Position numbers and translations under genes: made by a program. This document shows positions 11,377-45,548 of a stretch of DNA of 64,000 bases, in pieces. Below the pieces are notes generated by a model, which saw only the letters and a program-made list of their open reading frames with translations, was not told where the DNA came from and searched no databases. Each line of letters begins with the position of its first letter. Position 1 is the stretch's first letter. This DNA comes from Rhodovulum kholense. Its GTDB lineage: Bacteria > Pseudomonadota > Alphaproteobacteria > Rhodobacterales > Rhodobacteraceae. The stretch spans positions 62,001 through 126,000 of the forward strand of contig NZ_QAYC01000012.1 in the NCBI RefSeq assembly GCF_003053725.1. Direction: 5' to 3'.

Positions 11377-11398
11377 GGGTATTTCGGCCAAGAAGAAG
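11377..11398 (+). repeat. GGGTATTT...CCAAGAAGAA element, copy A
   Basis: GGGTATTT-CGG-CCAAGAAGAAG, in the sense of the upstream PfkB kinase gene, 112 nt after its stop and behind the hairpin cluster. One of six copies in the window. Confidence 0.85.
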
Positions 11399-11422
11399 AC
11401 CGCGCCGGGATGAGCCCGGGGG

Positions 11423-12241
11423 TCAGTCGCCGAGATGGGCGTGGACCTCGTCGAGGTCGATCTCGCCCAGCGGACGCTGATTGGCGGGGTCTTCCGCGTC
11501 ATAACGAAAGAGCCGGAAGTCGCGGTGATAGATCTCGTAGACGAGATGGCGCGACAGATCGTCGAAATAGGCCTCGACCGGGTGGGCGCGCCGCGGCCCG
11601 TGACCTTCGGATTCGTTGAAGCGGGGGATGCGGGCGAGGTCGACCGGGTGGCGGACCGGCGCGGCGTCAAGCACCGCCTGCATCCCTGTATCGAAGCATT
11701 CGGTGGCGAAGATCCGGTCGTAGCGGCCGCCATTGGCGATGAAGGTCGCCACATGGCCCGACATGTCGGACCAGTGGATGTCGGGCTCCATCGGGCGGCG
11801 CCAGCGGATCGTGTCGCGGGCAAACAGCAGAAAGCGGCGGAAGCTGGAGATCTGGTCGAATTCCTGCTGGCCGTCGGGGCCGCCGACCTCGATGCCGTAG
11901 GTTTCGATCAGCGTCGGCACCAGCTTGCCGCGGTAGCGGGTGCCGCTGCGCTGGATGCCGCAGATCTTGTCGAAGAAGGAGGACAGCACCCGGGCATAGG
12001 GGTTGCGCACGCAGGTGAAGGCCAGCGTGTCCCGCGCGCGGGCGCGGCGGTCGATCGCGGGCTGGCTGTCCTCGAACGCCCATTTGTGCAGGCCCTTGGC
12101 GGCATCGTGGATATCGCCGTCATAGAACCGGCCGTGATCCGAGAAAAACATGATCTGGCCGATGGTCGAGCAGGCGCATTTCGGCACCACGCGGTAGAGC
12201 ATGCTTTCGCTCAAGGTCATCCAGGTGCCGGGAAAGCCCAT
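11423..12241 (-). CDS. Sulfotransferase family 2 domain protein
   Basis: 272 residues. The N-terminal VVPKCACSTIGQIM matches the 5'-phosphosulphate loop of PAPS-dependent sulfotransferases (as in VPKTGSTS), and CVRNPYARVLSSFFDKI matches the 3'-phosphate-binding region. It would transfer sulphate from PAPS to a sugar or other acceptor. It diverges from a GT14 glycosyltransferase with 120 bases between, so a shared role in modifying a surface or exported glycan is a reasonable guess. The start MGFPGTWM is chosen because upstream in-frame sequence is Arg/Pro-rich and overlaps the divergent gene. Confidence 0.85.
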   Translation of the reverse strand: MGFPGTWMTLSESMLYRVVPKCACSTIGQIMFFSDHGRFYDGDIHDAAKGLHKWAFEDSQPAIDRRARARDTLAFTCVRNPYARVLSSFFDKICGIQRSGTRYRGKLVPTLIETYGIEVGGPDGQQEFDQISSFRRFLLFARDTIRWRRPMEPDIHWSDMSGHVATFIANGGRYDRIFATECFDTGMQAVLDAAPVRHPVDLARIPRFNESEGHGPRRAHPVEAYFDDLSRHLVYEIYHRDFRLFRYDAEDPANQRPLGEIDLDEVHAHLGD

Positions 12242-12361
12242 GTTCCGCCTCGTCGGTGCGGGCGGAACCGAACCGCCTGCGGTGACTTCTGTCCTCAGAG
12301 CCCGTAATAATCGGTAAATGCGGCCTCGGCGACACTGCGGCCGCCCGTTCGGGGGATCTGG

Positions 12362-13936
12362 ATGGCGATCGTCGCCTATTTGCTGCTCTGTCACAGGGAC
12401 CCGGAGACGATCGTCGCTCTGGCCGGGCGGCTGACGGCGGCGGGGGATCTGGTCGCCGTCCATCTGGACCGCCGCGCGCCGGATGCCGATTTCGCCGCGA
12501 TTCGCGCTGGCCTGGCGGGCAATGCCTCGGTCGTCTTCGCCCGGCGGGTGCGCTGTGGCTGGGGGGACTGGTCACTGGTGCAGGCGACGCTGAACGCGGC
12601 CCGCGCCGCGCTGGCGGCGTTTCCCCAGGCCACGCATCTTTACCTGCTCTCGGGCGATTGCCTGCCGATCAAGTCGGCGGTGCGGCTGCGTGCGGATCTG
12701 GACGACAGCGGGTCGGATCACATCGAAAGCGTCGATTTCTTCCGGTCGGGCTGGATCCGGACCGGGCTGAAGGACGAACGGCTGATCTACCGGCATCTCT
12801 TCAACGAGCGCCGCCAGAGGCGGCTGTTCTATGCCTCGATGGCGGTGCAGAAGGCGCTGGGCCTCAGGCGGGCGCCGCCGGCCGATCTGCAGGTGATGAT
12901 CGGCAGCCAGTGGTGGTGCCTGCGCCGGTCTACGGTCGAGGCGATCCTGACTTTCCTGGCGCGGCGGTCCGATGTGGTCCGGTTCTTCCGCACCAGCTGG
13001 ATCCCCGACGAGACCTTTTTCCAGACGCTCGTGCGTCATCTGGTGCCGACCACCGAGATCCGGTCGCGCGCGCCGACCTTCCTCATGTTCACCGATTACG
13101 GGATGCCGGTGACCTTCTACAACGACCACTACGACCTGCTGGTGGCGCAGGAGGGCTATTTCGCCCGCAAGATCTCGGTCGAGGCCGTGCAGTTGCGGGC
13201 GCGGCTGGCGGCGGTCTATGCCTCGGCCGATCGGGGGCCTGCGGCCTCGGGCGGCGGCCCCGAGATCCACCGGTTCCTGACCGGGCGCGGCCGGATCGGA
13301 CAGCGCTTTGGCGGCCGCGCCTGGGAACGTGGCGCGGGTCTGGGGCAGGGGCGCCAGCTGATGCTGGTGACCTGCAAGAAATGGCATGTCGCACGCCGTC
13401 TGGTCGAACGGGTGCGCCAGGCCACGGGGCTGGCTTCCGCCGATTTCGCTTTCGATGACGAGACGGTCGACCTGCCCGATCTGGGCGGGATAGAACGCAG
13501 TCGGGCCAAGCGCAGCCGCCACCGCCGCGCCTTTCTGCGGCTGGTCTATGAAAGCCTTGGCACCGACCGGCTGATCCTCTGCCTCGACCCGGCCGATCTG
13601 GAGATCATGGCGGATTTTCAGGCCGACGGTGCAACCGTGCGGATCCTCGAGATCGTCTGTCCATTCAGCCAGGCCGACCTTCTGGGCCATGCCCGGCGGG
13701 TGGGGCTTCTGTCCGACGCAAGCCCCCCGGGGGTGGCCGCGCGGGTGCTGCCGGCGCTGGCCCAGGACCTGGAGCGCGAGACCGCGCGGCTGAGGGCGGC
13801 CGGGTTTCCGGCGCTGTTCCGGCTGACCCCGGGCCAGAAGCTCAGCGAGGCGGCGCTGGTGCTGGCGCAATTCCTTGCAATCCCCTATGACACGGCCCGC
13901 GGGATCGCCGATACGGCGACCCTGTTCGACGATTGA
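12362..13936 (+). CDS. GT14 beta-1,6-N-acetylglucosaminyltransferase-like protein with long C-terminal domain
   Basis: 524 residues. Residues ~1-255 match the Core-2/I-branching glycosyltransferase fold (GT14): MAIVAYLLLCHRDPE, VRCGWGDWSLVQATLNA, YLLSGDCLPIKS and IGSQWWCLRR are the expected blocks. Residues ~265-524 form a second domain, known to me only as an uncharacterised extension of Rhodobacterales members. It probably transfers GlcNAc or a related sugar; the acceptor is unknown. The divergent sulfotransferase suggests a common sulphated or branched glycan. Confidence 0.85.
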   Translation: MAIVAYLLLCHRDPETIVALAGRLTAAGDLVAVHLDRRAPDADFAAIRAGLAGNASVVFARRVRCGWGDWSLVQATLNAARAALAAFPQATHLYLLSGDCLPIKSAVRLRADLDDSGSDHIESVDFFRSGWIRTGLKDERLIYRHLFNERRQRRLFYASMAVQKALGLRRAPPADLQVMIGSQWWCLRRSTVEAILTFLARRSDVVRFFRTSWIPDETFFQTLVRHLVPTTEIRSRAPTFLMFTDYGMPVTFYNDHYDLLVAQEGYFARKISVEAVQLRARLAAVYASADRGPAASGGGPEIHRFLTGRGRIGQRFGGRAWERGAGLGQGRQLMLVTCKKWHVARRLVERVRQATGLASADFAFDDETVDLPDLGGIERSRAKRSRHRRAFLRLVYESLGTDRLILCLDPADLEIMADFQADGATVRILEIVCPFSQADLLGHARRVGLLSDASPPGVAARVLPALAQDLERETARLRAAGFPALFRLTPGQKLSEAALVLAQFLAIPYDTARGIADTATLFDD

Positions 13937-13968
13937 GCCCTTCCGACAGTGCGTGAGTGAGGACCGAC

Positions 13969-14334
13969 ATGACCTATGCCTATGACGACCAGAATGTCTT
14001 TGCCCGGATCCTGCGGGGCGAGATCCCGAACGACACCGTGCTGGAAACCGGGATGAGCCTTGCGTTCAACGACATCGCGCCGCAGGCGCCGGTGCATGTT
14101 CTGGTGATCCCGAAGGGGCCCTATGTCTGCTACGATCATTTCGCGGCCGAGGCGAGCGATGCCGAGATCGTCGATTTCACCCGTACCATCGCCAGGGTCT
14201 GCGAGATGAAGGGGCTTGAGGACGGTTTCCGGATGATCTCGAACGCGGGCGAGCATGGGGTGCAGGAAGTTCCCCACCTGCATGTGCACATCCTCGGCGG
14301 GCGCGTTCTGGGGCGGATGCTGGCCAAGGGCTGA
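13969..14334 (+). CDS. HIT-family nucleotide hydrolase
   Basis: 121 residues, of the Hint/PKCI group of histidine-triad proteins, which hydrolyse nucleoside phosphoramidates such as AMP-NH2. The catalytic triad HLHVHIL is near residue 104, and FARILRGEIPND at the N-terminus is typical. An ATG four codons upstream is possible, but the chosen one follows GAGGACCGAC. It lies 32 bases after the GT14 gene and may be co-transcribed with it. Confidence 0.93.
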   Translation: MTYAYDDQNVFARILRGEIPNDTVLETGMSLAFNDIAPQAPVHVLVIPKGPYVCYDHFAAEASDAEIVDFTRTIARVCEMKGLEDGFRMISNAGEHGVQEVPHLHVHILGGRVLGRMLAKG

Positions 14335-14349
14335 GTCGAGGCCCCCGGC

Positions 14350-14808
14350 TCAGACGATCCGCGGCGCCAGCTCCGACGGGTCGTCGACCTCGACATGCCA
14401 GAAGGCGCGGGCCTCGGGCGGCAGGCGGGACAGCACGTCTTCCAGCGCCCGGGCATCGGTTGCCCGCCGCAAGGCCCAGGCGGTGGCCTCGATGGCGTTG
14501 TCGGGTGTCAGGTTGTGATGGGGGCGCAGGGCCTTCGCCTCGGCGGTCAGCGCGGCGCGGTCGGCGAAGGGCAGGGGCGGGGTGGTCACGTCCCAGCCCG
14601 CCACGAAGATCGCGCGCGGAACGGACGGCAGGACGCTGGCGAAATCGAGCCCCGCTTGCGCCGTCAACCGCCGCCGGAACACCTGGAAGACGCCGTCCAC
14701 CGCCGTGTAGGCCATGTTGTCGGAGGTCAGGTTCATCCGGTCCCGGGCATCGTCGAGAAATGCGCGGAATTCGCGCGAGGCATGGCGGTAGGTCCAGGGC
14801 ATCGGCAT
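14350..14808 (-). CDS. DUF2267 family protein
   Basis: 152 residues. The all-helical sequence with AFLDDARDRMNLTSDNMAYT, AVDGVFQVFRRRL and FWHVEVDDPSELA fits the DUF2267 family, whose function is unknown. It lies 23 bases downstream of the pseudouridine synthase on the same strand, so it probably belongs to that operon. Two in-frame ATGs (MPMPW) make the start uncertain by two residues. Confidence 0.8.
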   Translation of the reverse strand: MPMPWTYRHASREFRAFLDDARDRMNLTSDNMAYTAVDGVFQVFRRRLTAQAGLDFASVLPSVPRAIFVAGWDVTTPPLPFADRAALTAEAKALRPHHNLTPDNAIEATAWALRRATDARALEDVLSRLPPEARAFWHVEVDDPSELAPRIV

Positions 14809-14831
14809 TGGGGCCTCTCCGTCGCGGGGGA

Positions 14832-15380
14832 TCAGGCGGCGCGCCAGGTCCCGGTTTCGATCCCGTCGAGGGTCCAGTCGCCCACCCGGTAGCGGATCAG
14901 TCGCAGCGTCGGGTGGCCCACCGCGGCGGTCATGCGGCGGACCTGACGGTTCCGGCCCTCGGAAATGGTCAGCTCGATCCAGCAATCGGGCACCGACTTG
15001 CGGACCCTTACCGGCGGGTCGCGCGGCCAGAGCCCGGCCGGTGCGTCGATCCGCCGGACCCGCGCCGGACGGGTCGGCCCGTCCTTCAGGGTCACGCCGC
15101 GCCCCAGCGCCTCGAGCGCCTCGTCCGGGGGAAGGCCCTCGATCTGGGCCCAATAGGTCTTTTCGGTCTTTGCCTTCGGGGTCGCGATCCGGGCCTGCAG
15201 CCGCCCGTCATCGGTCAGCACCAGAAGCCCCTCGCTGTCGCGGTCGAGCCGCCCGGCCGGATAGACCCCGGGCAGGTCGATGAAGGCGGCCAGCGTCCGA
15301 CGGTCGGGCCGGGGCGGGCCGTCATCGGTGAATTGCGACAGCACCCCCCAGGGCTTGTTGAAAAGGATCACCCGGCTCAC
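14832..15380 (-). CDS. RluE/RsuA-family rRNA pseudouridine synthase
   Basis: 182 residues. [13 protein letters not shown] opens the catalytic domain, and [20 protein letters not shown] carries the catalytic aspartate of the family. [20 protein letters not shown] is the C-terminal RsuA/RluE signature. There is no N-terminal S4 domain, as in RluE, so modification of 23S rRNA helix 89 is the likely role. The GTG start lies in the stop of the upstream ABC ATPase (GTGA), giving translational coupling. Confidence 0.9.
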
Positions 15381-16321
15381 GCCGCGCCCTTGTGCGAGGT
15401 CAGGGCGACGAAGACGTCTTCGAGGTTGGGTTCTTCGGTCGCGATGTCGCGGATCGAGATGCCCGCGTTCCGGACCGCCTCGATCACCGCGCCGGTGCCG
15501 ATTTCGCTCCGGCGATAGGTGAAGCAGAGCGCGCCGTCGGGGCGGAGGCAGGTTTCGACCGGGGCGGGCATCTCGGGCGGGGCCGCGACCTCGCCCTCGG
15601 GCTGGATCACCAGCGTCTTGGCATCCATCCGCCCGATCAGGGCCGAGGTCGAATCGCGCGCGATCAGTTCGCCATGGTTGATGATGGCGATCTCGCCGCA
15701 CATCTCCTGCGCCTCTTCCAGGTAATGCGTGGTCAGGATGATGGTGGTGCCCTGTTCCTCGTTCAGCCGCCGGATATTGGCCCAGAGCATCTGGCGCAGC
15801 TCGATATCGACGCCCGCGGTGGGCTCGTCCAGCACCAGCACCTGCGGCCGGTGGACCAGCGCCTTGCCCAGCAACAGCCGCCGCCGCATGCCGCCCGAGA
15901 GGTTCCGGGCATAGGCGTCCGCCTTGTCCTCAAGCCCGATCGCCTTCAGCACCCGGTCGGTGACACGCTGGGATTTCGGTACGCCGTAAAGCCCCGCCTG
16001 CACCTCGAGGGCTGCGCGCGGGGTGAAGAACGGGTCGATGTTCAGTTCCTGCGGCATCACCCCGATCGAGGCGCGGGACTGGCGCGGGTTCACGTCCTGA
16101 TCGAAGCCCCAGATGCTGACCTTGCCGCTGGTTTTCAGCACCAGTCCGGCCAGAATGTTGATCAGCGTCGACTTGCCCGCGCCGTTCGGCCCCAGCAACC
16201 CGAAGATCGACCCGGCCGGGATGTCGAGGTCGATGCCCTTCAATGCCTGTTTCGGCGGCTGACTGCCGCTGGCGGCATAGGTCTTGGTCAATCCCTCGAT
16301 CTCGATCGCGTTCCCAGTCAT
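15377..16321 (-). CDS. ABC transporter ATP-binding protein
   Basis: 314 residues. Walker A is [12 protein letters not shown], the signature motif is [13 protein letters not shown], Walker B is [12 protein letters not shown], and the H-loop is [10 protein letters not shown]. This is the ABC-2/NodI type that pairs with an integral ABC-2 permease. No such permease adjoins it here: the downstream genes are a pseudouridine synthase (4-base overlap) and a DUF2267 protein, and the upstream gene diverges. The permease may be elsewhere, or the ATPase may have another partner. Confidence 0.92.
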
Positions 16322-16420
16322 TTCCCTGCCCCTGACGCTTGCCCGTGCCGCTTCATTCGCTATCATGGCCCCGGACATAAGGCGATCCGGTCGCCTCGGC
16401 AACGCGCGGAGCTTAATCGC

Positions 16421-16633
16421 ATGGCCCCAGAAGCCCCCGGACAGGACAAGGACACCACTCCTCCCGAAACGACGGTCACCACCGAATGGCGGGTCTCTTG
16501 CGATGGCAGCGGGCCGGGTCTGGGCCATCCGCGGGTCTGGCTGTCGATCCCGCCCGAGACGGGCTTTGTCGAATGCGGCTATTGCGACCGCAAGTTCGTG
16601 CATCAGAGCTTCGCCGACAAGGTCAAGACCTGA
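16421..16633 (+). CDS. Small zinc-finger (zf-CHCC) protein
   Basis: 70 residues. The C-terminal part carries C...GHPRVWLSI...[10 protein letters not shown], the Cys-His-Cys-Cys zinc ligand set of the zf-CHCC family, which includes the NDUFS6 subunit of complex I. Stand-alone alphaproteobacterial copies may join respiratory complex I; that role is family knowledge, not shown here. It starts about 100 bases from the divergent ABC ATPase and is followed 20 bases later by a DsbA-like gene. Confidence 0.88.
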
Positions 16634-16652
16634 CCGACGGCGTACGGGTCCG

Positions 16653-17396
16653 ATGACCGTCACCCGCCGTGGACTGGTCTGGGTGATGGGCGCTGCAGGC
16701 GTGACGACGGCGATTTCGGCCGCGCCGGGGCTCTGGCGCCGGGCCTTTCCTCCCGAGATCGAGACCGAACCGGTGCCGGGCCTGCCCGGCTTTTGCCGCG
16801 TGCCGAGGCCCGGCCCCGCGCTTTTGCCTCTGATCGGCTTGACGGCCGAGCCCCCGCCACCGCTGCCCGAAGACCCCTGCGCCGCGCTTTTCGGTCCCGC
16901 GCCCGACCGTCCCGGGGCGGTGCCGGTTGCCTGTTTCACCGACATCCGCTGCCCCTGGTGCCGGCGGCTGACACCCCTGCTGATCGCCCGCGCGGCGCGC
17001 CGGCCGGCCGCGATCCGCATCGCCTGGCAGCCGCTGCCCTTGTTGGGGGACGGCTCGGTCCTGGCCGCGCGGGCGGCGCTGGCGGCCGAGGCGCAGGGAG
17101 CGGCTCTTGACTGGCAGGAACGCACCATGGGCGGGGCGCTGGTGCCGACCCCCAGGGGCATGCGCGAGATTGCCGCCGGGATGGGGCTCGATATTGCCGC
17201 CTTCGAGCGGGACATGGCCCATCCGCGCACCGAGGCGCGGCTGGCCGAGGCCCGGGCGCTGGCCGCGGCTTTCGGCTTTGTCGGCACGCCCGGTCTCGTG
17301 GTCGGTCGCGTGGCGATCCTTGGCGGGGTCGACGGGCCGATGCTGGACCGGCTGATCGCCGACGAACGCGCGGCGCCCGGCTCCGCCTGCGGCTGA
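16653..17396 (+). CDS. Exported DsbA/thioredoxin-fold protein
   Basis: 247 residues. The N-terminus has an Arg-Arg pair before a hydrophobic stretch (TRRGLVWVMGAAGVTTAI), which resembles a Tat or ordinary export signal. The CxxC active site occurs in FTDIRCPWCRRLTP (about residue 100), and FGFVGTPGLVVG supplies the cis-proline loop (TP), so this is a probable periplasmic thiol oxidoreductase or bound disulfide protein. Its substrate is unknown. It may be transcribed with the zinc-finger gene upstream and polA downstream. Confidence 0.83.
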   Translation: MTVTRRGLVWVMGAAGVTTAISAAPGLWRRAFPPEIETEPVPGLPGFCRVPRPGPALLPLIGLTAEPPPPLPEDPCAALFGPAPDRPGAVPVACFTDIRCPWCRRLTPLLIARAARRPAAIRIAWQPLPLLGDGSVLAARAALAAEAQGAALDWQERTMGGALVPTPRGMREIAAGMGLDIAAFERDMAHPRTEARLAEARALAAAFGFVGTPGLVVGRVAILGGVDGPMLDRLIADERAAPGSACG

Positions 17397-17494
17397 GCGC
17401 GTCCGGCACTGGCGAAGCCGTGCGCTTCATGGCAAGACCGCAGGCAGGTCCGGCAGGCGGGCCAGTGACACGGGCCAGCGACGGGGAGAACGAC

Positions 17495-20305
17495 ATGACC
17501 GAGGGTTTCGGCACCGGCTGCCATCTGCATCTGATCGACGGCTCGGCCTTCATCTTCCGCGCCTTCCACGCGCTGCCGCCGCTGACGCGGAAATCCGACG
17601 GGCTGCCGATCGGGGCCGTCGCGGGGTTCTGCAACATGATCCACAAATATGTGCAGGACAATCGCGGCCCGGATGCGCCGACCCATGTGGCGGTGATCTT
17701 CGATAAGGGCAGCCACACCTTCCGCACCGATCTTTACCCCGACTACAAGGCCAATCGCGACGAGATGCCCGCCGATCTGCGGCCGCAGATCCCGCTGACC
17801 CGCGAGGCCACGCGCGCCTTCAACATCGCCTGCATCGAAAAAGAAAACTACGAGGCCGACGACATCATCGCCACCTATGCGCGGCTGGCGGTCGAGAAGG
17901 GCGGCCGGGTCACCATCGTCAGCTCCGACAAGGACCTGATGCAGCTGGTCGGCAACGGGGTCGAGATGCTGGATGCGATGAAAAACAAGCGGATCGGCGT
18001 CGAGGAGGTTGAAGCGAAGTTCGGCGTCGGCCCCGACCGGGTGGTCGATGTGCAGGCGCTGGCGGGCGATTCCGTCGACAACGTGCCCGGTGCGCCGGGG
18101 ATCGGGATCAAGACCGCGGCCCAGCTGATCCAGGATTATGGCGATCTGGAAACGCTGCTGGACCGGGCGGAGGAGATCAAGCAGCCCAAGCGCCGCCAGA
18201 CCCTGATCGAGCACCGCGCCCAGATCGAGCTGTCGAAAAAGCTGGTAACGCTCGATGCCGAGACGCCGCTTGACGAGACCCTGGACGATCTTGAGGTGAA
18301 GGACCCCGATGCCGAGACCCTGCTGGGGTTTCTGGCGCAGATGGAGTTCCGCACCCTGCTGAAGCGGGTCGCCGATGCGCTGGGCGCCGAGCCGCCCGCC
18401 TTGTCCGAGACAAGCCCCGCCGCCGCCGACCCCGCCGCGCCCGAGACGCCGGCCGCGCTGCCGTTCGACCCCGAGGGGTATGAGTGTGTGCGTCACGCGG
18501 CCGCGCTTGAGGTCTGGATCGGCCGCGCCCAGGGCCGGGGCCGGGTCGCGGTCGATACCGAGACCACCGGGCTTGATGAGATGCGGGTAGATCTGGTGGG
18601 CATCTCGCTGTCGGTCGAGCCGGGGCAGGCCTGCTACATTCCGCTGGGACATCGCGAGGGCGAGGGCGATCTTTTCGGCTCGGCGGCGCTGGCCGGGGGG
18701 CAGATGCCGATGGACGAGGCGCTGGCGCTGCTCAAGCCGCTGCTGGAAGATCCGGCGGTGATGAAGATCGGGCAGAACATGAAATACGATGCCAAGATCC
18801 TCGCCCGCCACGGCATCGCGGTCGCGCCCATCGACGACACGATGCTGATGTCCTACGCCATGCATGCCGGGCTGCATGGCCATTCGATGGATGCGCTGTC
18901 GGAACGCTATCTCGGGCACGCGCCGATCCCGATCAAGTCGCTGCTGGGCTCGGGCAAGTCGCAGATCACCTTCGACAAGGTGCCGGTCGCCGAGGCGGTG
19001 AAATATGCGGCCGAAGATGCCGACGTGACGCTGAGGCTCGCCGAGCTCTTCAAGCCGCAGCTGCACCGGGCCAAGGTCACGACCGTCTACGAGACGCTGG
19101 AACGCCCGCTGGTGCCGGTGCTGGCCGAGATGGAGATGCATGGCATCAAGGTCGATCGCGATACGCTGTCGAGGATGTCGAACGCCTTTGCCCAGAAGAT
19201 GGCCGCGCTTGAGGCCGAGATCCACGATCTGGCGGGCGAAAGCTTCAATGTGGGCTCGCCGAAGCAGCTCGGCGAGATCCTGTTCGACAAGATGAGCCTC
19301 GCGGGCGGCAAGAAGGGCAAGACCGGCGCCTATGCCACCGGCGCCGATGTGCTTGAGGATTTGGCGGCCGAGGGCCACGACCTGCCCGCGCGGGTGCTGG
19401 ACTGGCGCCAGCTGTCGAAGCTGAAATCGACCTATACGGATGCGCTTCAGGACCATATCAACCCCGAGACGGGGCGCGTGCATACCTCTTACGTGATCAC
19501 CGGGGCGGTGACCGGGCGGCTCGCCTCGACCGACCCGAACCTGCAGAACATCCCCGTGCGTAGCGAAGAGGGGCGCCGCATCCGCGAGGCGTTCGTGGCC
19601 GAGGAAGGCAAGGTGTTGCTGAGCCTCGACTATTCGCAGATCGAGCTGCGCATCCTGGCCCATGTGGCCGGGATCGATGCCCTGAAAGAGGCGTTCCGCG
19701 AGGGGCAGGACATCCATGCGATGACGGCGTCCGAGATGTTCGACGTGCCGATGGCCGAGATGACGCCCGAGATCCGCCGCCGCGCCAAGGCGATCAATTT
19801 CGGGGTGATCTACGGGATTTCGGGCTTTGGCCTTGCCCGGAACCTGCGCATTCCGCGCAGCGAGGCGCAGGGCTTCATCGACCGCTATTTCGAGCGCTTC
19901 CCGGGCATCCGCGACTACATGGACGCGACGGTCGCCTTCGCCAAAGAGCATGGCTATGTGCAGACCCTGTTCGGGCGACGGATCCATACGCCCGAGATCG
20001 GTGCCAAGGGGCCGCAGGCGGGCTTTGCCAGGCGTGCGGCGATCAACGCGCCGATCCAGGGGACGGCGGCCGACATCATCCGCCGCGCGATGATCCGGAT
20101 GCCTGCGGCGATCGAGGGGCTGCCCGCGAAGATGCTGCTGCAGGTCCATGACGAACTGATCTTCGAGGTCGAGGCGGGGGCGGCGGAAGACGTGGCCGAC
20201 CGCGCGCGCGCGGTCATGGAACGCGCCGGGCTTCCTGCCGTGGCGCTGGACGTGCCGCTGGTCGTCGATGCGGGGCAGGGTCCGAACTGGGCCGCGGCGC
20301 ATTAG
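17495..20305 (+). CDS. polA: DNA polymerase I
   Basis: 936 residues, full length. Residues ~1-300 form the 5'-3' exonuclease (ADDIIATYA, SSDKDLMQLV, GDSVDNVPGAPGIGIKTA). Residues ~335-540 form the 3'-5' proofreading domain with apparently complete acidic residues (DTETTG near 352, NMKYDAKIL, YAAEDADVTL). The polymerase domain has motif A LSLDYSQIELRIL (~711), motif B RRRAKAINFGVIYG (~767) and motif C LQVHDELIFEV (~882). The start ATG follows GGGGAGAACGAC. It fills gaps in replication and excision repair. Confidence 0.97.
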   Translation: MTEGFGTGCHLHLIDGSAFIFRAFHALPPLTRKSDGLPIGAVAGFCNMIHKYVQDNRGPDAPTHVAVIFDKGSHTFRTDLYPDYKANRDEMPADLRPQIPLTREATRAFNIACIEKENYEADDIIATYARLAVEKGGRVTIVSSDKDLMQLVGNGVEMLDAMKNKRIGVEEVEAKFGVGPDRVVDVQALAGDSVDNVPGAPGIGIKTAAQLIQDYGDLETLLDRAEEIKQPKRRQTLIEHRAQIELSKKLVTLDAETPLDETLDDLEVKDPDAETLLGFLAQMEFRTLLKRVADALGAEPPALSETSPAAADPAAPETPAALPFDPEGYECVRHAAALEVWIGRAQGRGRVAVDTETTGLDEMRVDLVGISLSVEPGQACYIPLGHREGEGDLFGSAALAGGQMPMDEALALLKPLLEDPAVMKIGQNMKYDAKILARHGIAVAPIDDTMLMSYAMHAGLHGHSMDALSERYLGHAPIPIKSLLGSGKSQITFDKVPVAEAVKYAAEDADVTLRLAELFKPQLHRAKVTTVYETLERPLVPVLAEMEMHGIKVDRDTLSRMSNAFAQKMAALEAEIHDLAGESFNVGSPKQLGEILFDKMSLAGGKKGKTGAYATGADVLEDLAAEGHDLPARVLDWRQLSKLKSTYTDALQDHINPETGRVHTSYVITGAVTGRLASTDPNLQNIPVRSEEGRRIREAFVAEEGKVLLSLDYSQIELRILAHVAGIDALKEAFREGQDIHAMTASEMFDVPMAEMTPEIRRRAKAINFGVIYGISGFGLARNLRIPRSEAQGFIDRYFERFPGIRDYMDATVAFAKEHGYVQTLFGRRIHTPEIGAKGPQAGFARRAAINAPIQGTAADIIRRAMIRMPAAIEGLPAKMLLQVHDELIFEVEAGAAEDVADRARAVMERAGLPAVALDVPLVVDAGQGPNWAAAH

Positions 20306-20308
20306 GCG

Positions 20309-20329: not shown

Positions 20330-20386
20330 GGGCCTCGCCCATAGGTTCTGCCGGGGCGGGGAGCTTTGACGAAGACCCGTTCCCGG

Positions 20387-20408
20387 TTTCTTCTTGGCTT
20401 AAATACCC
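20387..20408 (-). repeat. GGGTATTT...CCAAGAAGAA element, copy B
   Basis: Read on the minus strand: GGGTATTT-AAG-CCAAGAAGAAA, sense to the DUF1285 gene and 30 nt after its stop. The bases before it read ATG in frame with GGGTATTT. Confidence 0.85.
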
Positions 20409-29319: not shown

Positions 29320-29342
29320 GGGGGGCTGTCTGCCCCCCTCTT
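29320..29342 (+). terminator. Terminator-like hairpin between glcD and glcE
   Basis: GGGGGGC and GCCCCCC pair around TGTCT and are followed by TCTTGT. A second small inverted repeat (TTGTCC/GGACAA, 29341-29356) adjoins it. Both lie inside the glc operon and could lower glcE/glcF expression relative to glcD. Confidence 0.5.
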
Positions 29343-29368
29343 GTCCTGCCGGACAATTCACCCCCCGA

Positions 29369-29390
29369 GGGTATTTGGACCAAGAAGAAT
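29369..29390 (+). repeat. GGGTATTT...CCAAGAAGAA element, copy C
   Basis: GGGTATTT-GGA-CCAAGAAGAAT, 51 nt after the glcD stop. Its last two bases are the first two of the glcE start codon, so the AAGAAG of the element lies close to where a Shine-Dalgarno sequence would be. Confidence 0.85.
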
Positions 29391-37283: not shown

Positions 37284-37337
37284 CGGTCATTCTCCCTTGG
37301 ATATCGTCTGTGCAGCATGGGGGCAGGGGGAACGGGG

Positions 37338-38144: not shown

Positions 38145-38150
38145 AATTGG

Positions 38151-39143
38151 TCAGGCCTGGCCGAACCGCTCCTGCCAGCAAGGCCTTGTGTCGCCCGGGG
38201 CGGGGCGCGCCAGATAGACCCCGCGCGCGATGGCCCGCGCCAGGCAGACGGCGGCGGCATGACCGAGCCGCAGCGCCTCGTACCCGCCCTCGGGCAGCGG
38301 CTTCGCCCCGGTGGCTGCGGCAAAGACCAGATCGCCGTCGAAGGGCGTATGGCTTGGCACCAGCGCGCGGGCCATGCCGTCATGGGCGGCGACCGCCATC
38401 CGCGTCGCCTGCGCCTGGGTCAGTGCCGCATCGGTCGCGACGATGGCGATGGTCGTCGACTGGCCAAGCCTGGCCTCGGGGCGTGGCTCGGCCAGAGGAT
38501 CGTGCCGCCCCATACCGCGCCCGCCGAACTCGTCCCCGATCTCGAAGGGCGCGGCCCAGAATTCCGGCCCGCCGCCCATGACCGCAGACCCCAGCGCATT
38601 GATCGCGACCAGCGCGCCGACGGTAATGCCGCTCTCCAGCACCAGCGAGGCCGAGCCGAGCCCGCCTTTCAGATCCGCCGTGGTGGCGCCAAGCCCCGCA
38701 CCCGCGCTGCCCAGCTCGATCTCTTCGCTTGCCGCCTCCAGCGCCGCCCGGCCAAGCGCGCGATAGGGCGCCTCGTCCCAGCCCTTGTCGCCGCCATTCG
38801 CCAGATCGAACAGGATCGCGCCCGGCACGATGGGCACCCGCTGCCCCGCGACCTCGAAGCCGCGCCCCATGGCGCGCAGCCCCTCGACCACCCCCGCCGC
38901 GGCATCGAGCCCGAAGGCCGACCCGCCCGACAGCACCAGCGCATCGACCTCCTGCACCAGCCGGTCGGGCGCCAGCAGATCGGTCTCGCGGGTGCCGGGC
39001 GCCCCGCCCATCACATGCACCCCGGCCACGAAAGGCGCCTCGCCCAGCAGAACCGTCACGCCGGTCTTCACCCGCGCATCCCCGGCCTGGCCGACCCTCA
39101 GCCCCGCCACATCGGTCACAAGGTTCCGCTGCCCCGGCCGCAT
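38151..39143 (-). CDS. P1/S58-family peptidase (DmpA/NylC-like, self-cleaving)
   Basis: About 330 residues. LSGGSAFGLDAAAGVVEGL, VPIVPGAILFDL and SHTPFDGDLVFAAATG are blocks of the P1/S58 N-terminal-nucleophile hydrolase family, whose members cleave themselves and act as aminopeptidases, D-esterases or nylon-oligomer amidases. The start MRPGQRNLV follows GGGAG; a start 13 codons upstream would translate repeat copy F into MGIFAKKK, which I judge spurious. It is downstream of an aldehyde dehydrogenase on the same strand. Substrate unknown. Confidence 0.85.
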   Translation of the reverse strand: MRPGQRNLVTDVAGLRVGQAGDARVKTGVTVLLGEAPFVAGVHVMGGAPGTRETDLLAPDRLVQEVDALVLSGGSAFGLDAAAGVVEGLRAMGRGFEVAGQRVPIVPGAILFDLANGGDKGWDEAPYRALGRAALEAASEEIELGSAGAGLGATTADLKGGLGSASLVLESGITVGALVAINALGSAVMGGGPEFWAAPFEIGDEFGGRGMGRHDPLAEPRPEARLGQSTTIAIVATDAALTQAQATRMAVAAHDGMARALVPSHTPFDGDLVFAAATGAKPLPEGGYEALRLGHAAAVCLARAIARGVYLARPAPGDTRPCWQERFGQA

Positions 39144-39158
39144 CGCGCCCACTCCCGT

Positions 39159-39180
39159 CTTCTTCTTGGCAAAAATACCC
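39159..39180 (-). repeat. GGGTATTT...CCAAGAAGAA element, copy F
   Basis: Read on the minus strand: GGGTATTT-TTG-CCAAGAAGAAG, 40 nt after the stop of the aldehyde dehydrogenase gene and in its sense, and 15 nt before the S58 peptidase start. Confidence 0.85.
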
Positions 39181-39219
39181 ATGGCACAGCGCCGGACGGA
39201 AGGCTGACCTGCGGTCGGC

Positions 39220-40668
39220 TCAGCCGTGGCGTGCCGCGACCGTCTTCAGCACCGAAAAGCCGTAAAGCGCCTCGAACCCCTTCTCGCGGCCATGGCCCGA
39301 AAGGCCCACGCCGCCGAAGGGCAGCTCGACCCCGCCGCCCGCGCCGTAATTGTTCAGATAGACCTGGCCCGCGCGCAGCTTCCTGGCCATCCGCATCTGC
39401 CGGGCGCCGTCGCGGGTCCAGACTGCGGCCACCAGCCCGTAGCCGGTGCCATTGGCGATCGACACCGCCTCCTCCTCGTCGGCGAAGGGGATCACCACCT
39501 GCACCGGGCCAAAGATTTCCTCCTGTGCCAGCCGGTGCCCGGGCGGCACCCGCGTCAGCAGCCGCGGCGCCACGTAATATCCGCCCGCGGGCGCATTGCC
39601 GATGATCCGGCCCTCGGCCGCGGTTTCCAGATCCTGTCCCTTGCCGAGATAATCCAGGACGATCTCTTTCTGCCGGCTCGAGATCAGCGGCCCGAGATTG
39701 AGATCCTCCAGCGCAGGCCCCACCCAGAGCGCGCGATAGGCGCCCGCCATGCGCTCGACCAGCTCGTCATAAAGCCGCCGCTCGACCAGGATGCGCGACG
39801 AGGCCGAACAGGTCTGCCCCGCGTTCTGCAGCCCGCCATTGACCAGGAACGGCAGCGCCGCGTCGAGATCGGCATCGGCAAAGACGATCTGGGGCGACTT
39901 GCCGCCCAGTTCCAGCGTCACCGGCGCCACATGCCGCGCCGCCTCGGCCTGCACCTTGCGTCCGACCGACAGCGAGCCGGTGAACGAGATATGATCGACC
40001 CCGGGATGCGAGGCGAGCGCCGCGCCGGCCTCGTCGCCAAGCCCCGGCACCACGTTCAGCGCGCCATCGGGCAGGCCCGCCTCTTCGGCCAGCTTGGCAA
40101 AGGCCAGCGCGGTCAGGCAGGCTTCCTCGGCGGGCTTCAGCACGCAGGCATTGCCCATCGCCAGCGCCGCCCCGACCGAGCGTCCGATGATCTGCATCGG
40201 GTAGTTCCAGGGAATGATATGGCCCGTCACCCCATGCGGCTCGCGCAGGGTGTAGACGGTATAGCCGTCCATGTAGGGCAGGCTGTGGCCCATCACCTTG
40301 TCGGCGGCACCGCCGTAGAATTCCAGATAGCGCGCCAGCGTCATCGCATCCGACCGCGCCTGGGTCAGCGGCTTGCCGACATCGGTGGCCTCGATCCGCG
40401 CCAGCGTTTCGGCGCGGCCGCGCACGAACTGGCCGATTCGGGTCAGAACCCGGCCGCGCTCGGTCGCGGTCATCCGGCCCCAGGACCCCTGCCGGGCCTC
40501 GTCCGCGGCGGTGACGGCCGCGTCGATATCGGCAACCTTGCCGCGCGCGATCGACCCGATCGGCGCGCCGGTCGAGGGATTCTCGACCGCAAGAAAATCG
40601 CGGCTGGCAGGCGGCTGCCAGACCCCGCCGATAAAGCAGCGGTCGGTTTCGAACCAAAGCTCGCGCAT
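39220..40668 (-). CDS. Aldehyde dehydrogenase family protein
   Basis: 482 residues with all catalytic parts: IIPWNYPMQIIG (oxyanion Asn), VTLELGGKSPQIVFADADLD (Glu base) and LQNAGQTCSASSRILVE (nucleophile Cys). It is an NAD(P)-dependent dehydrogenase of a small aldehyde. It begins 6 bases after the stop of the dipeptide-type ABC ATPase gene on the same strand, so it may be the last but one gene of that transport operon, and could act on the aldehyde derived from the imported substrate. Confidence 0.9.
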   Translation of the reverse strand: MRELWFETDRCFIGGVWQPPASRDFLAVENPSTGAPIGSIARGKVADIDAAVTAADEARQGSWGRMTATERGRVLTRIGQFVRGRAETLARIEATDVGKPLTQARSDAMTLARYLEFYGGAADKVMGHSLPYMDGYTVYTLREPHGVTGHIIPWNYPMQIIGRSVGAALAMGNACVLKPAEEACLTALAFAKLAEEAGLPDGALNVVPGLGDEAGAALASHPGVDHISFTGSLSVGRKVQAEAARHVAPVTLELGGKSPQIVFADADLDAALPFLVNGGLQNAGQTCSASSRILVERRLYDELVERMAGAYRALWVGPALEDLNLGPLISSRQKEIVLDYLGKGQDLETAAEGRIIGNAPAGGYYVAPRLLTRVPPGHRLAQEEIFGPVQVVIPFADEEEAVSIANGTGYGLVAAVWTRDGARQMRMARKLRAGQVYLNNYGAGGGVELPFGGVGLSGHGREKGFEALYGFSVLKTVAARHG

Positions 40669-40673
40669 ACGTC

Positions 40674-42251
40674 CTATTCCGGTTCCTTCAGCTTCGGGGC
40701 GGCCGACAACAACGCCTTGGTATAAGCATGCGCAGGGTTGTGCAGCACCTTTTCTGTCGCCCCTTCCTCTACGATCCGGCCCGCCTGCATCACAAGCACT
40801 CGTTCGGTGCTCGACCTGACCACGGACAGGTCGTGACTGATGAAAAGATAGGACAGACCGAACCTTGCGCGCAGATCGGCCAGCAGATCGAGAATCTGCG
40901 CCCTGACGCGAACGTCAAGCGCCGAAACCGCCTCGTCAAGCACGATCAGGTCGGGCCGCGCGATCAGCGCGCGCGCGATGGCGATGCGCTGGCGCTGGCC
41001 GCCCGAGAATTCGTGGATGAAGCGGTCGCGGTGCTTCGGATCAAGCCCCACAGCCTCGAGCGCCGCGTCGATGCGCTCGTCGGCATCGCTCGGGCGCCCG
41101 CCCAGATGAAACGGCTCGGCGATCAGCCGGGCCACGCGGTGGCGCGGATTGAAGCTGCCAAAAGGGTCCTGAAAGACCGCGTTCATCTTGCGGCGCAGCC
41201 GGGCGGGCATCGCCGCACCGGCCCGCACGACCTCTCCGTCCAGCCGGATCTCGCCGCCCTGCAGCGGATCGAGCCCCAGCACGGCACGCGCCAAGGTCGA
41301 TTTGCCGCACCCGGATTCGCCTACAAGGCCCAAACTTTCACCGCGCGCGATCCCGAAGCTGACCCCGTCGACCGCGCGATGGGGCGGCAGCCGCCGGAAC
41401 AGGCCGGAATGGACCGCCGGATAGCTGCGCCGCGCCTCGCGCACCTCCAGCAGCGGCGGGCCGGGCGGGGGCGGGGGCGGGGGCGTCGTCGGCCGGTGCG
41501 CAGAAGCGGCCACCAGCGCGCGGGTATAGGGGTGCTTTCGATCCGCCAGCACGGATGCGGCCGGGCCCTCCTCGACGATCTCGCCGCGCCGCATCACCGC
41601 CAGCCGGTCGGCAACCCCCGAGATCACCGCCAGATCGTGGGTGATCAGCAAGAGCCCCATGCCCGTTTCGGCCACCAGCCCCTTCAGCAGATCGAGGATC
41701 CGCGCCTGCGTGGTGACGTCGAGCGCGGTGGTCGGCTCGTCCGCGATCAGCAGCTGCGGGCGCAGCGCGATGGCCATGGCGATGCAGACCCTCTGGCGCT
41801 GCCCGCCAGACAGCTCGTGCGGATAGCGCGTGGGAGGAAACCGGTCGGGGGGCAGGCCGACCCGGTTCAGCAGCCGCGCGGCGGCGCGGCGCGCCTCGGC
41901 CCGGGTCGCCTCGCCATGCACGATCAGCGTCTCGGCCACCTGATCGCCGATCCTCTGCACCGGGTTCAGCGCGGTCATCGGCTCCTGGAAGATCATGCCC
42001 AGATCGCGGCCGCGGACCCGGCACATCTGCCGGTCCGACAGCGACAGAAGATCCAGCCCGTTCAGCCGCAGATGGCCGCGAAGTTCGGCGCCCTCGGGCA
42101 GAAGGCCCATGATCGCCAGCGCGGTCATCGACTTGCCCGACCCGCTTTCGCCCGCAAGCCCCAGGATCTCGCCCCGCCCGATTTCGAGCGAGACGCCGTT
42201 CAGCACCGGACGGCCGTTCAGGCTCAGCCCGAGATCGCGCAGCAGGATCAC
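40674..42251 (-). CDS. Peptide/opine-type ABC transporter, two fused ATP-binding domains (DppD-DppF)
   Basis: 525 residues with two complete nucleotide-binding domains. First: [33 protein letters not shown]. Second: [34 protein letters not shown] proline-rich linker (about residues 255-268) joins them. Fused pairs energise dipeptide/nickel/oligopeptide importers. The GTG start overlaps the dppC-like stop (GTGA). Confidence 0.93.
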
Positions 42252-43069
42252 CGGGCGGCTCTCCTGAGGCGCGGGTCGAGCGCGTCGCGCAGCCCGTCGC
42301 CCAGAAGGTTCAGCCCCAGCACGGTCAGCACGATGGCCAGCCCCGGCAGGATCGCCAGCCGGGGCGCGGTGTAGATCATGGTCTGCGCTTCGGCCAGCAT
42401 CCGGCCCCAGCTGGGCGTCGGCGGCTGCGCCCCGAGCCCGACATAGGACAGCCCCGCCTCGGCGAGGATGCCGAGGCTGAACTGGATCGTCGCCTGCACG
42501 ATCAGCAGATTGGCGATATTGGGCAGGACATGTTCGGTGCTGATGCGGGCCCGGCCCTTGCCCGCCAGCTCGGCCGCGCGGATATAATCGAGCGTCCAGA
42601 GGCCGAGTGCGGCGCCGCGCGTGACCCGGGCGAAGACCGGGATGTTGAAGATGCCGATGGCCAGGATCGCGTTCAGCGCCGAGGGGCCGAGAATGGCGGT
42701 GATCAGGATCGCGATCACCAGCGCCGGGAAGGCGAAGATCAGGTCGTTCATGCGCATGACGATCTCGTCGAGCCAACCGCCGCGGGTTGCTGCCGCCATC
42801 AGCCCCAGCGGCACGCCCGCGCCCATGCCGATGCCGACCGCGACCAGCGCCACCGCGATCGAGCTGCGCGCGCCCACCATCAGCATCGCCAGCATGTCGC
42901 GCCCCAGCTGGTCGGTGCCCAGCAGATAGGGGCCGCCCGGCGGGCGCAGCCGCTCGGCGATGTTCAGCGCGGTCACGTCATGGGGCACCCAGACCAGCGA
43001 CAGCGCCGCCAGCGTCAGCACGGCGCCGCTGATCACGCCGCCCGCGATCAGGTTCGGTCGCGCGCTCAT
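42248..43069 (-). CDS. Peptide-type ABC transporter permease (DppC-like)
   Basis: 273 residues, about six membrane helices. YLLGTDQLGRDMLAMLMVGAR is the N-terminal DppC signature, and the EAA loop is recognisable at RAAELAGKGRARI...HVLPN. It overlaps the DppB-like gene by ATGA and the fused ATPase by GTGA, so the three are translationally coupled. Confidence 0.93.
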   Translation of the reverse strand: MSARPNLIAGGVISGAVLTLAALSLVWVPHDVTALNIAERLRPPGGPYLLGTDQLGRDMLAMLMVGARSSIAVALVAVGIGMGAGVPLGLMAAATRGGWLDEIVMRMNDLIFAFPALVIAILITAILGPSALNAILAIGIFNIPVFARVTRGAALGLWTLDYIRAAELAGKGRARISTEHVLPNIANLLIVQATIQFSLGILAEAGLSYVGLGAQPPTPSWGRMLAEAQTMIYTAPRLAILPGLAIVLTVLGLNLLGDGLRDALDPRLRRAAR

Positions 43070-44010
43070 CGGCGCTTCAGCCGCGGGTCGACCGCAGCAT
43101 AGGCCAGATCGACAAGGAAGGTGACGAGGATCACCGCGAAGACCAGCAGCATCACCACGCTTTCGACCACGATCAGGTCGCGCTGGGTGATGGCCTGGAA
43201 GATCAGCCGCCCGAGACCGGGCAGGAAGAACACGTTCTCGATGATGATGGCTCCCGCCAGCAGAAAGGAGAATTGCAGCCCGAGGATGGTCAGGACCGGG
43301 ATCAGCGCGTTGCGAAAGGCATGGCGGCGCAGCGCCTGTGCCCGGCTCAGCCCCTTGGCGCGGGCGCTGCGGATATAGTCCTGCCCCAAGGTCTCGATCA
43401 GCGCCGAGCGCATCACCCGCGCGAGGATCGCGGCCTGCGGCAACGCCAGCGCCACGGCCGGAAGGGTCAGCGCCTTCAGCCCGGGGCCAAGCCCCGCCTC
43501 CCAGCCCGGAAAGCCCCCCGCCGAGACCCAGCGCAGCTTGACCGCGAAGACCAGCACCAGCAGCATCGCGAACCAGAAATTCGGCACTGCGATGCCCAGT
43601 TGCGTCGCCGCCATGATGCCAAGATCGGCCCCCCGCCCGCGCCGCGCCGCGGCCCAGAGCCCCACCGGCAGCGCGATGGCCGTCGACAGCGCCAGCGCAT
43701 AGGCGGCAAGCGGCAGCGAGACGGCCAGGCGCTGCGCCACCAGTTCGGCCACCGGCACGCGATAGGTGTAGGAGATCCCGAAATCGCCGGTCGCGAGCCC
43801 CGAGATCCAGTCGAGGTATCGCGCCCAGACCGAGCCCGACAGCCCCAGCTCGTCGCGCAGCACCGCCACCGTCTCGGGCGCCGCGTTCAGCCCCAGCATA
43901 TAGGCGGCGGGGTCGCCCGGGATCACCTCGATCGCCGCAAAGATCGCAACGCTGGCTGCGATCAGGCTCAGCGACAGCGACAGGAGGCGGGTCAGGGCGT
44001 AACGCAGCAT
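43066..44010 (-). CDS. Peptide-type ABC transporter permease (DppB-like)
   Basis: 314 residues. MLRYALTRLLSLSLSLIAAS is the first membrane helix; GDFGISYTYRVPVAELV and IRSARAKGLSRAQALRRHAF (EAA loop) are typical of DppB. It is the first gene of the minus-strand permease/ATPase group. The cognate binding protein lies 1.6 kb upstream beyond a creatinase gene on the other strand. Confidence 0.93.
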   Translation of the reverse strand: MLRYALTRLLSLSLSLIAASVAIFAAIEVIPGDPAAYMLGLNAAPETVAVLRDELGLSGSVWARYLDWISGLATGDFGISYTYRVPVAELVAQRLAVSLPLAAYALALSTAIALPVGLWAAARRGRGADLGIMAATQLGIAVPNFWFAMLLVLVFAVKLRWVSAGGFPGWEAGLGPGLKALTLPAVALALPQAAILARVMRSALIETLGQDYIRSARAKGLSRAQALRRHAFRNALIPVLTILGLQFSFLLAGAIIIENVFFLPGLGRLIFQAITQRDLIVVESVVMLLVFAVILVTFLVDLAYAAVDPRLKRR

Positions 44011-44195
44011 GCGCCCGAATCTAGGCCAAGGGGCAGGCCTGGCGCCAGTGCAATCGCCGCCGCGTCCGGACGCGATCTGATGCTTGCCAGACGGCGCGCA
44101 CCGGCTATGCTCGGCCCCGGGCACCGTGCCGATGGCGTCGTGCGCGGGGGGCTGATGCCCCCGATGCCCGGCGGTTTCCGCCTGTCCTCCTGTAC

Positions 44196-44219
44196 GCCGG
44201 GAACATCCGATGTCCCGGC
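44196..44219 (+). promoter_or_regulatory. Hairpin in the creatinase leader
   Basis: GCCGGG-A-ACAT and ATGT-CCCGGC pair around CCG, ten pairs with one bulged A, 33 bases before the creatinase start. It may be an operator dyad or an RNA hairpin. The 240-base divergent space to dppB shows nothing else clear. Confidence 0.35.
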
Positions 44220-44252
44220 CCGCGCGCAGGGATGGCCTGTCAGGGAGCTCCC

Positions 44253-45458
44253 ATGACCCGACCCGACTTCTACCGTTTCGCGAATTGCGAGAAGGCCGCG
44301 CTGCCCTTCGCGCCCGACGAATACGACACCCGCCTGATGGGGCTTCGCAGCGCGATGGACGCCACCGGCGCCGACGTGGCGGTGCTGACCTCGATGCAGA
44401 ACGTGGCCTATTATTCGGGCTTTCTCTATTGCAGCTTCGGCCGACCTTATGCGCTGGTGGTGACCGCCTCGCAATCGGTCGTGATCGGTGCGGGCATCGA
44501 CGCGGGCCAGCCCTGGCGGCGCTGTCATGGCGAGGCGCTGACCTATACCGACTGGGCGCGCGACAATTTCTGGCGCGCGGTTGCCCATGTCGCGGGGCAG
44601 GGCCGCCGCGTCGGGATCGAGGCCGACCATCTGACGCTGACCCGGAGGGACGAGCTTGACACCTTCCTTTCGCCCGGGGGCATGGTCGATCTGGCACCCG
44701 CCACCATGCAGCAGCGGATGCGCAAGAGCCCGGCCGAGCTTGACCTGATCCGGGCGGGCGCGGCGGTGGCCGATATCGGCGGCCACGCGATCCGCGCGGC
44801 GGTGCGCGAGGGCGCGCGCGAGATCGACGTGGCGATGGCCGGGCGTGATGCGATGGAGCTGGAAATCGCCCGCCGCTTCCCCGAGGCCGAATACCGCGAC
44901 ACCTGGGTCTGGTTCCAGTCCGGGCCCAATACCGACGGTGCCCATAACCCGGTCACGGGCCGTGTCCTGCAGCGCGGCGATTTGCTGTCGCTGAACGCCT
45001 TCCCGATGATCTCGGGTTACTACACCGCGCTCGAGCGGACGATGGTTCTGGGCGAGCCCGATCCCGTGACGCTGGCGATCTGGGAGGCCAACGTGGCGGC
45101 CCATGACTACGGCATGTCGCTGCTGAAACCAGGGGCCAGCTGCGCCGACATCACGCAGCGGATCAATGCCTTCCTGGCCGAGCGCGACCTGCTGCAATAT
45201 CGCAGCTTCGGTTATGGCCACAGCTTCGGGGTGCTGTCGCATTACTATGGCCGCGAGGCCGGGCTGGAGCTGCGCGAGGATATCGGGACCGTGCTGGAAC
45301 CCGGCATGGTGATCTCGATGGAACCGATGCTGACCATCCCCGAAGGCCGCCCGGGTGCGGGCGGCTACCGCGAACACGACATCCTGATCGTCACCGGGGA
45401 CGGGGCGGAAGACATCACCCGCTATCCCTACGGGCCGGGGTTCAACGTGATCGCCTGA
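44253..45458 (+). CDS. Creatinase (creatine amidinohydrolase), M24 family
   Basis: 401 residues, close to the 403 of the Pseudomonas enzyme. The match is strong throughout: [77 protein letters not shown] and [20 protein letters not shown]. The catalytic histidine is His231 in DGAHNPV (His232 in P. putida numbering, recalled). It would split creatine into sarcosine and urea. The 'pita-bread' fold lacks metal ligands in true creatinases. It sits on the plus strand between the two halves of a minus-strand peptide-type transporter, suggesting that the transporter imports creatine or a related guanidino compound. A neighbouring M24 peptidase function is less likely. Confidence 0.88.
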
Positions 45459-45494
45459 CCGGGGGCGTGGCGCCCGGCCCTGCCGTTGCGAGAT

Positions 45495-45516
45495 GGGTAT
45501 TTGGACCAAGAAGAAG
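45495..45516 (+). repeat. GGGTATTT...CCAAGAAGAA element, copy D
   Basis: GGGTATTT-GGA-CCAAGAAGAAG, 37 nt after the creatinase stop and in its sense, behind a small hairpin (GGGCG/CGCCC, 45464-45476). With copy E it forms a large inverted repeat. Confidence 0.88.
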
Positions 45517-45526
45517 ACATGTTCGG

Positions 45527-45548
45527 TTTCTTCTTGGATCAAATACCC
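45527..45548 (-). repeat. GGGTATTT...CCAAGAAGAA element, copy E
   Basis: Read on the minus strand: GGGTATTT-GAT-CCAAGAAGAAA, 63 nt after the stop of the binding-protein gene and in its sense. Copies D and E face each other with 10 bases between and pair at nearly every position. Confidence 0.88.

Follow-up and report, generated by a model that had tools for sequence, protein, structure and literature searches.

What, if anything, is marked by a word of 18 fixed bases that occurs six times in a single stretch of the genome of Rhodovulum kholense? The stretch, here called the window, is the 64,000 nt at positions 62,001 to 126,000 of contig NZ_QAYC01000012.1 (assembly GCF_003053725.1), and the element is GGGTATTT-N3-CCAAGAAGAA, in which positions 1 to 8 and 12 to 21 are fixed and the three bases between them (NNN) are free. 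An earlier note on the same DNA took the element to act in RNA at the 3' ends of genes, always in the sense direction, as a signal for termination, for 3' processing, or for the binding of an RNA or protein. We think the chances evenly balanced that the element is instead a double-stranded DNA recognition site for a lineage-specific protein and serves as a chromosome-wide tag. No earlier description was found in the open-access literature on the element itself or on the repeats, terminators, and uptake sequences of this group.

Number, position, and strand of the copies

The six copies first reported are all present in the window, and each is exact at the 18 fixed bases. No seventh copy was found there even at up to 3 mismatches, and 100 shuffles of the window gave a mean of 0.01 copies and never reached six. 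The source genome (G000; 4.46 Mb in 51 contigs) holds 66 exact copies, 33 on each strand, against none in the reversed control, and the claim of a dispersed, nonrandom element near gene 3' ends is upheld. Allowing up to 3 mismatches gave 75 copies in all, that is, nine beyond the exact ones, with one match in the control. By simple arithmetic, the exact 18-bp word holds about 36 bits, whereas about 17 would be enough to find 66 sites in this genome. At position 22, 48 copies have G and 16 have A, and the third base of NNN is G in 49 of the 66. Among named genomes, that of Rhodovulum euryhalinum comes closest to G000 when judged by nicotinate phosphoribosyltransferase (a Pfam-supported protein; 88% identity).

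How the copies lie relative to genes was assessed with our own codon-model gene caller, whose errors limit every count of gene context. In the window, the copies stand 111, 29, 50, 39, 36, and 62 nt past the stop codon of an upstream gene in the sense direction, in agreement with the 30 to 112 nt given before, and Pfam supports the gene names that had been proposed (PfkB, DUF1285, FAD-linked oxidase, aldehyde dehydrogenase, M24/creatinase type, and SBP_bac_5). All six copies are indeed sense. Any copy in a convergent gap is sense to one of its neighbors, however, and four of the six lie in such gaps. Thus, only two copies are informative, six of six in the sense direction is expected about 1 time in 4, and the argument that chance could not give this orientation fails.

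Genome-wide, sense orientation is not a rule. Convergent gaps hold 28 of the 66 copies, tandem gene pairs hold 20 sense and 14 antisense copies, and two copies each are found in divergent gaps and inside genes. Among the 46 unpaired copies, those between tandem genes were 15 sense to 9 antisense (P = 0.31), and in the congener G015 (53 sites) they were 11 sense to 10 antisense, many of the G015 sites being orthologous to G000 sites so that the two sets are not independent. Antisense copies lie between Pfam-supported genes at edd-eda, carboxyltransferase-biotin carboxylase, and rlmH-gpmI. Ten of the 12 proteins flanking six antisense sites were submitted to Pfam, and all ten were well supported (IMP dehydrogenase, ribosomal L28, carboxyltransferase, biotin carboxylase, KDPG aldolase, a 6-phosphogluconate dehydratase type, pyridine nucleotide-disulfide oxidoreductase, MAPEG, SPOUT methyltransferase, and iPGM). 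Moreover, xdhA and xdhB, identified by NCBIfam TIGR02963 and TIGR02965, each contain an in-frame copy, antisense in the former and sense in the latter. At this locus (L067, 8837 to 8857 and 10956 to 10976), each of the two genes carries a hairpin module plus the element in frame, and residues are added to both proteins.

The genome-wide tabulation of strand and position that had been suggested as a check gave no significant strand bias at tandem genes, but it did give a bias of position. Convergent gaps are favored (28 of 66 copies versus 52 of 248 gaps) and divergent gaps, which hold promoters, are avoided (2 of 66 versus 54 of 248), the background gaps coming from loci chosen around copies and leaning toward gaps that bear them. 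A bound protein that acts as a transcription roadblock or insulator where genes end might produce this enrichment in convergent gaps. Copies also sit between tightly spaced tandem genes in both orientations, however, sense at phnK-phnL and pdxA-rsmA and antisense at edd-eda and rlmH-gpmI, and terminator-like hairpins are not fewer at gene ends with a sense copy; a roadblock is improbable in our judgment. Site strand did not follow replication in the sampled stretches of G015, where the skew changed sign near 0.05 and 2.0 to 2.1 Mb (by eye), and copy positions in G015 and G014 were not distinguishable from random when even spacing was sought. Because the sites need no orientation relative to genes, we infer a chromosome-wide tag rather than gene-by-gene control.

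Hairpins and hairpin repeats

The GC-rich hairpins that were noted in front of several copies are real, but they are no commoner there than at gene ends without a copy: fold z scores below -1.5 were found upstream of 27% of the 66 copies and of 25% of 138 copy-free gene ends (P = 0.42). With no overall enrichment upstream of copies, we reject the hairpin as an integral part of the element. A terminator-like hairpin with a T tract occurs at 9 of 39 G000 and 8 of 28 G015 gene ends that have a sense copy. The pckA copy stands past a GC-rich hairpin, and in several congeners five T residues come after this hairpin (the consensus scan did not list it in G000); at metG, the copy precedes a hairpin with five T residues. 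The element does not belong among intrinsic terminators, as 14 of 66 copies are tandem antisense. What speaks for a link with termination is that terminator-like hairpins are somewhat commoner where a sense copy follows the gene (P = 0.047 for convergent and 0.037 for tandem ends in G015, and 0.19 and 0.17 in G000), partly because the TATTT of the element supplies the T residues. With hairpins commoner, not rarer, a role of the element as a substitute for terminators is not supported.

A sense-strand RNA element at 3' ends, as first proposed, would account for the frequency of copies after stop codons. In addition, TATTT can act as the T tract of an adjacent hairpin in several copies, the inverted pair of the window folds strongly, and the purine-rich tail recalls the Hfq ARN repeats. 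Antisense copies are kept too, however, the one at edd-eda being exact in G015; reading frames contain copies on both strands; there is no enrichment of hairpins; and no Rfam family matches the sites in the window. We consider action in RNA very unlikely, and as a general rule a sense-strand RNA element is ruled out by the tandem contexts, the Pfam-supported antisense cases, and the in-frame copies on both strands in xdhA and xdhB. A split guide RNA, with the complementary halves swapped and within 30 nt of each other, was found in none of seven genomes; an unswapped guide would resemble another copy.

Some of the hairpins are themselves repeats. GC-rich hairpin repeats of three kinds, here called modules a, b, and c, were found in 14 instances at G000 loci, most of which were chosen for carrying a copy, and in all 14 the repeat ends exactly at a copy. 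Module c (window positions 11270 to 11376) is a dispersed multihairpin repeat of about 100 to 120 bp, and in the stretches examined 10 of 10 BLAST hits (query included; six loci after orthologues are joined) ended in the element, in one case degenerate. The element might therefore be the common tail of nonautonomous mobile repeats, akin to repetitive extragenic palindromes (REP), bacterial interspersed mosaic elements (BIME), or miniature inverted-repeat transposable elements (MITE), and kept for mobility; inverted pairs and the in-frame copies in xdhA and xdhB speak for the same origin. Against it, G000 lacks the RAYT/Y1 transposase family PF01797, and just one of the 16 genus genomes, G013, has it, while 5 of 14 control genomes were positive. 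Moreover, old orthologous copies are exact while NNN and the flanks diverge, and no clean insertion allele was seen, the xdhB allele of G015 being a 45-bp in-frame deletion that removed most of the element and left part of it. G000 and G002/G015 carry different modules at the carboxylase locus, where the element itself is retained, and thus we take the hairpins to be secondary.

The element resembles REP and BIME sequences in being dispersed, extragenic, near gene ends, lineage specific, arranged in inverted pairs, and in some copies beside hairpins. It differs in that its core is not palindromic (the fixed 8 + 10 bases form no inverted repeat, and folding upstream is not above that at other gene ends) and in that NNN is free. 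Membership in the REP/RAYT system is rejected on the absence of PF01797 from G000 and from 15 of the 16 genus genomes, and we regard a mobile-repeat tail in general as unlikely.

Constancy within the genus and dialects across the family

How well the element is kept can be read from orthologous sites. Such a site exists in G015 for 46 of the 66 G000 sites, and across these, 6 of 782 letters have changed at 17 of the fixed positions, whereas differences number 55 of 138 letters in NNN, 138 of 460 in the 10 nt upstream, and 199 of 460 in the 10 nt that begin at position 23. The whole G015 genome holds 36 exact copies and 19 in which A15G is the sole change. The 20 G000 sites for which no G015 orthologue was seen at first were covered in part by further stretches, read by eye. 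The L070 copy is present in G015, the copy at window position 11377 has one change (position 21), and at L041 a copy follows the same gene after a different intervening sequence. The pairs at L039 and L073 have one member present and the other absent, L042 and L043 have decayed, L082 is short of one N, and the remaining sites gave no or partial hits. Within the 190 nt shown, 6 of 16 genus genomes have a copy after der (G000, G005, G001, G015, G012, and G013) and 5 of 16 have one after pckA, the one in G013 being on the opposite strand. The sites are old and constrained within the clade and turn over between species. G010, which belongs to the same genus as the window, has no copy at up to 3 mismatches of the G000 spelling and is possibly a natural knockout.

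Beyond the genus, the spelling changes. Of 61 genomes, 17 contain the exact G000 spelling, among them 14 of the 16 genus genomes with 1 to 101 copies each; it was found in none of 24 genomes of other families. A general pattern, RRRTATTTNNNNNNARANRAA (of the form RRRTATTT-N3-xxxARANRAA), was run on 149 genera, all within Rhodobacteraceae, and gave 4,771 matches against 55 in controls. In 79 of the 149 genera, the pattern matched 10 times or more and its control no more than twice, and the impression that related strings exist in other Rhodobacterales was correct. Among the remaining genera, 40 had 1 to 9 matches, 29 had none, and one had 13 matches but 5 in the control. Because the pattern demands TATTT, it partly imposes the constancy of that string, and it misses dialects like the one in G016; low-GC genomes whose controls also match (e.g., G129 and G072) hold unrelated matches only.

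Each genome uses few spellings. Among the matches listed, mostly one to three spellings, each with free NNN, cover nearly all copies in a genome. G016 uses mostly GGATATTT-N3-CCAAGAAGTG, G021 uses mainly AGGTATTT-N3-ACCAGAAGAA along with two minor dialects, and G014 has two, GAGTATTT-N3-CCAAGAAGAA and GGATATTT-N3-GCCAGAAGAA. The letters that differ most often between dialects are at positions 1 to 3 and 12 to 14, and left and right halves are found in different combinations (e.g., in G276). When 82 sites outside G000, some of them from the same genus, were compared with G000 sites, 20-odd flank matches were found among the matches listed, and at some of these sites the dialect differs between genera. 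The xdhA site reads GGG..CCAAGAAGAA in G000 and GAG..GAAAGATGAA in G035, in frame in both (SFFLAEIP versus SFIFPEIL), whereas at xdhB the two genomes have one dialect in common. The pdxA-rsmA site reads GGG..CCAAGAAGAA in G000 and GAG..GCAAGATGAT in G021, and a search centered on pncB found another dialect at that site in an uncultured member of the Rhodobacteraceae. Different dialects at orthologous sites are what coevolution of site and reader predicts. Three dialects are also represented on a few putative viral contigs (L264 to L295), by 1, 17, and 14 stretches.

Copies also form inverted pairs. G000 has 10 such pairs at a distance of up to 250 bp, each with its GAAGAA ends facing inward, and their starts are 33 to 43 bp apart in nine and 190 bp apart in one; pairs in G012 and G015 are similar (31 to 43 bp, with one of 192 bp). 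Outward-facing exceptions are one pair in G167 and one block of hairpins in G021 flanked by two copies (L093, about 340 to 480). In genomes with several dialects, the two members of a pair agree: all 6 pairs in G167 do so (chance, about 0.006), as do all 4 in G014, where a fifth pair of degenerate copies is left out of the count; by eye, one same-dialect pair each was also seen in G025, G131, and G276.

Short words kept exact in dialects might be a self-DNA mark like the uptake sequences of Neisseriaceae and Pasteurellaceae, for which a surface receptor prefers tagged DNA and recombination keeps the tags exact. Uptake sequences, too, are short, are kept much better than their flanks, and vary in dialect around a constant core; some stand as inverted pairs between genes, and they occupy permissive parts of the core genome (PMC3630211, PMC2397512). 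The element shares further traits with these DNA uptake sequences and uptake signal sequences: it is a nonpalindromic, dispersed, exact word in species dialects, several of which can occur in one genome. It differs in having its 18 fixed bases around a free N3 and in occurring tens to about 200 times, not thousands: G000 holds 66 copies per 4.46 Mb, whereas the main uptake-sequence dialect numbers 1,500 to 3,800 copies per genome in the part of the source available (PMC3630211). In addition, the type IV prepilin N-terminal motif PF07963 matched in 0 of 16 genus genomes and in 8 of 14 control genomes, with a 27-position model whose sensitivity may be weak. Pilin-based uptake is disfavored on that result, and a self-DNA mark of any such kind seems unlikely.

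We return to a DNA site read by a protein. The element would consist of two half-sites, RRRTATTT and xxxARANRAA, spaced by three free base pairs, so that positions 1 to 3 and 12 to 14, about one helical turn apart, would lie on one face of the DNA. The reader would be a lineage-specific DNA-binding protein with two contact modules and little tolerance, probably one such protein per dialect, and inverted pairs would be read by one and the same protein. Sites would rest where the DNA tolerates them, at convergent and tandem gene ends and rarely inside genes, and the tag may serve nucleoid organization or another role in which it outweighs the neighboring gene. The matS, Noc, and SlmA sites are dispersed sites of chromosome organization, largely palindromic and regional. 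The element with its putative reader resembles them as tens of dispersed protein sites indifferent to neighboring genes, and it differs in being bipartite, nonpalindromic, and chromosome-wide and in changing its spelling between relatives.

Several points weigh against this reading. Exactness is not absolute: in G015, 17 of the 46 orthologous sites have G for A at position 15, and both forms, A15 and G15, occur within several pairs there. In G021, two copies on the same strand, separated by 88 bp, have different dialects. Sites turn over between congeners, and der and pckA lack a copy in most genus genomes. Wherever one of the three hairpin modules was found in the loci examined, it adjoined a copy, an arrangement reminiscent of a mobile unit. 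Finally, strict conservation could also stem from RNA pairing or biased recombination, and both the reader and its binding are predictions from sequence.

A bolder claim, which we advance tentatively and with more doubt than confidence, is that the family has an undescribed DNA-tagging system. Fast-evolving, related, bipartite DNA-binding proteins would each have their own 18-bp dialect at tens to about 200 chromosomal sites, independent of gene orientation, and sites and readers would shift specificity together even inside protein-coding genes. An exact word that is spelled differently between genera, and in up to three ways per genome, implies a coevolving reader in a large bacterial family. 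If found, the reader would reveal a new system of chromosome organization, chromosome marking, or self-recognition, and the dialects are ready-made natural swaps with which to test it. Annotators can drop the terminator reading of the motif.

The six copies of the window

Copy 1, GGGTATTT-CGG-CCAAGAAGAA, lies on the plus strand at 11377 to 11397, in a convergent gap between Pfam-supported PfkB and sulfotransferase genes. Module c (11270 to 11376, plus strand) ends exactly at this copy, and BLAST matches to it elsewhere in the genome begin at about the same point and end at the element. Copy 2 (NNN = AAG; 20388 to 20408, minus strand) is also convergent, between the DUF1285 and DNA polymerase I genes, both supported by Pfam. 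Copy 3 (NNN = GGA; 29369 to 29389, plus strand) is a tandem sense copy after the FAD-linked oxidase gene of the glcD type, directly downstream of hairpin module b (29320 to 29368, plus strand), and copy 4 (NNN = TTG; 39160 to 39180, minus strand) is a tandem sense copy between the aldehyde dehydrogenase gene and a peptidase S58 gene. Copies 3 and 4 each have an orthologous copy in G015.

Copies 5 (NNN = GGA; 45495 to 45515, plus strand) and 6 (NNN = GAT; 45528 to 45548, minus strand) are the first and second members of an inverted pair in the convergent gap between the creatinase-type and SBP_bac_5 genes, both Pfam supported. The pair, 45495 to 45548, folds as one hairpin (-27.9 kcal/mol; z = -6.4), and the G015 orthologue of copy 5 is degenerate. 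At the gathering threshold, Rfam gave no match at the element sites, and its sole match in the window was the ffh small RNA family RF01793, at 14 to 66 on the minus strand.

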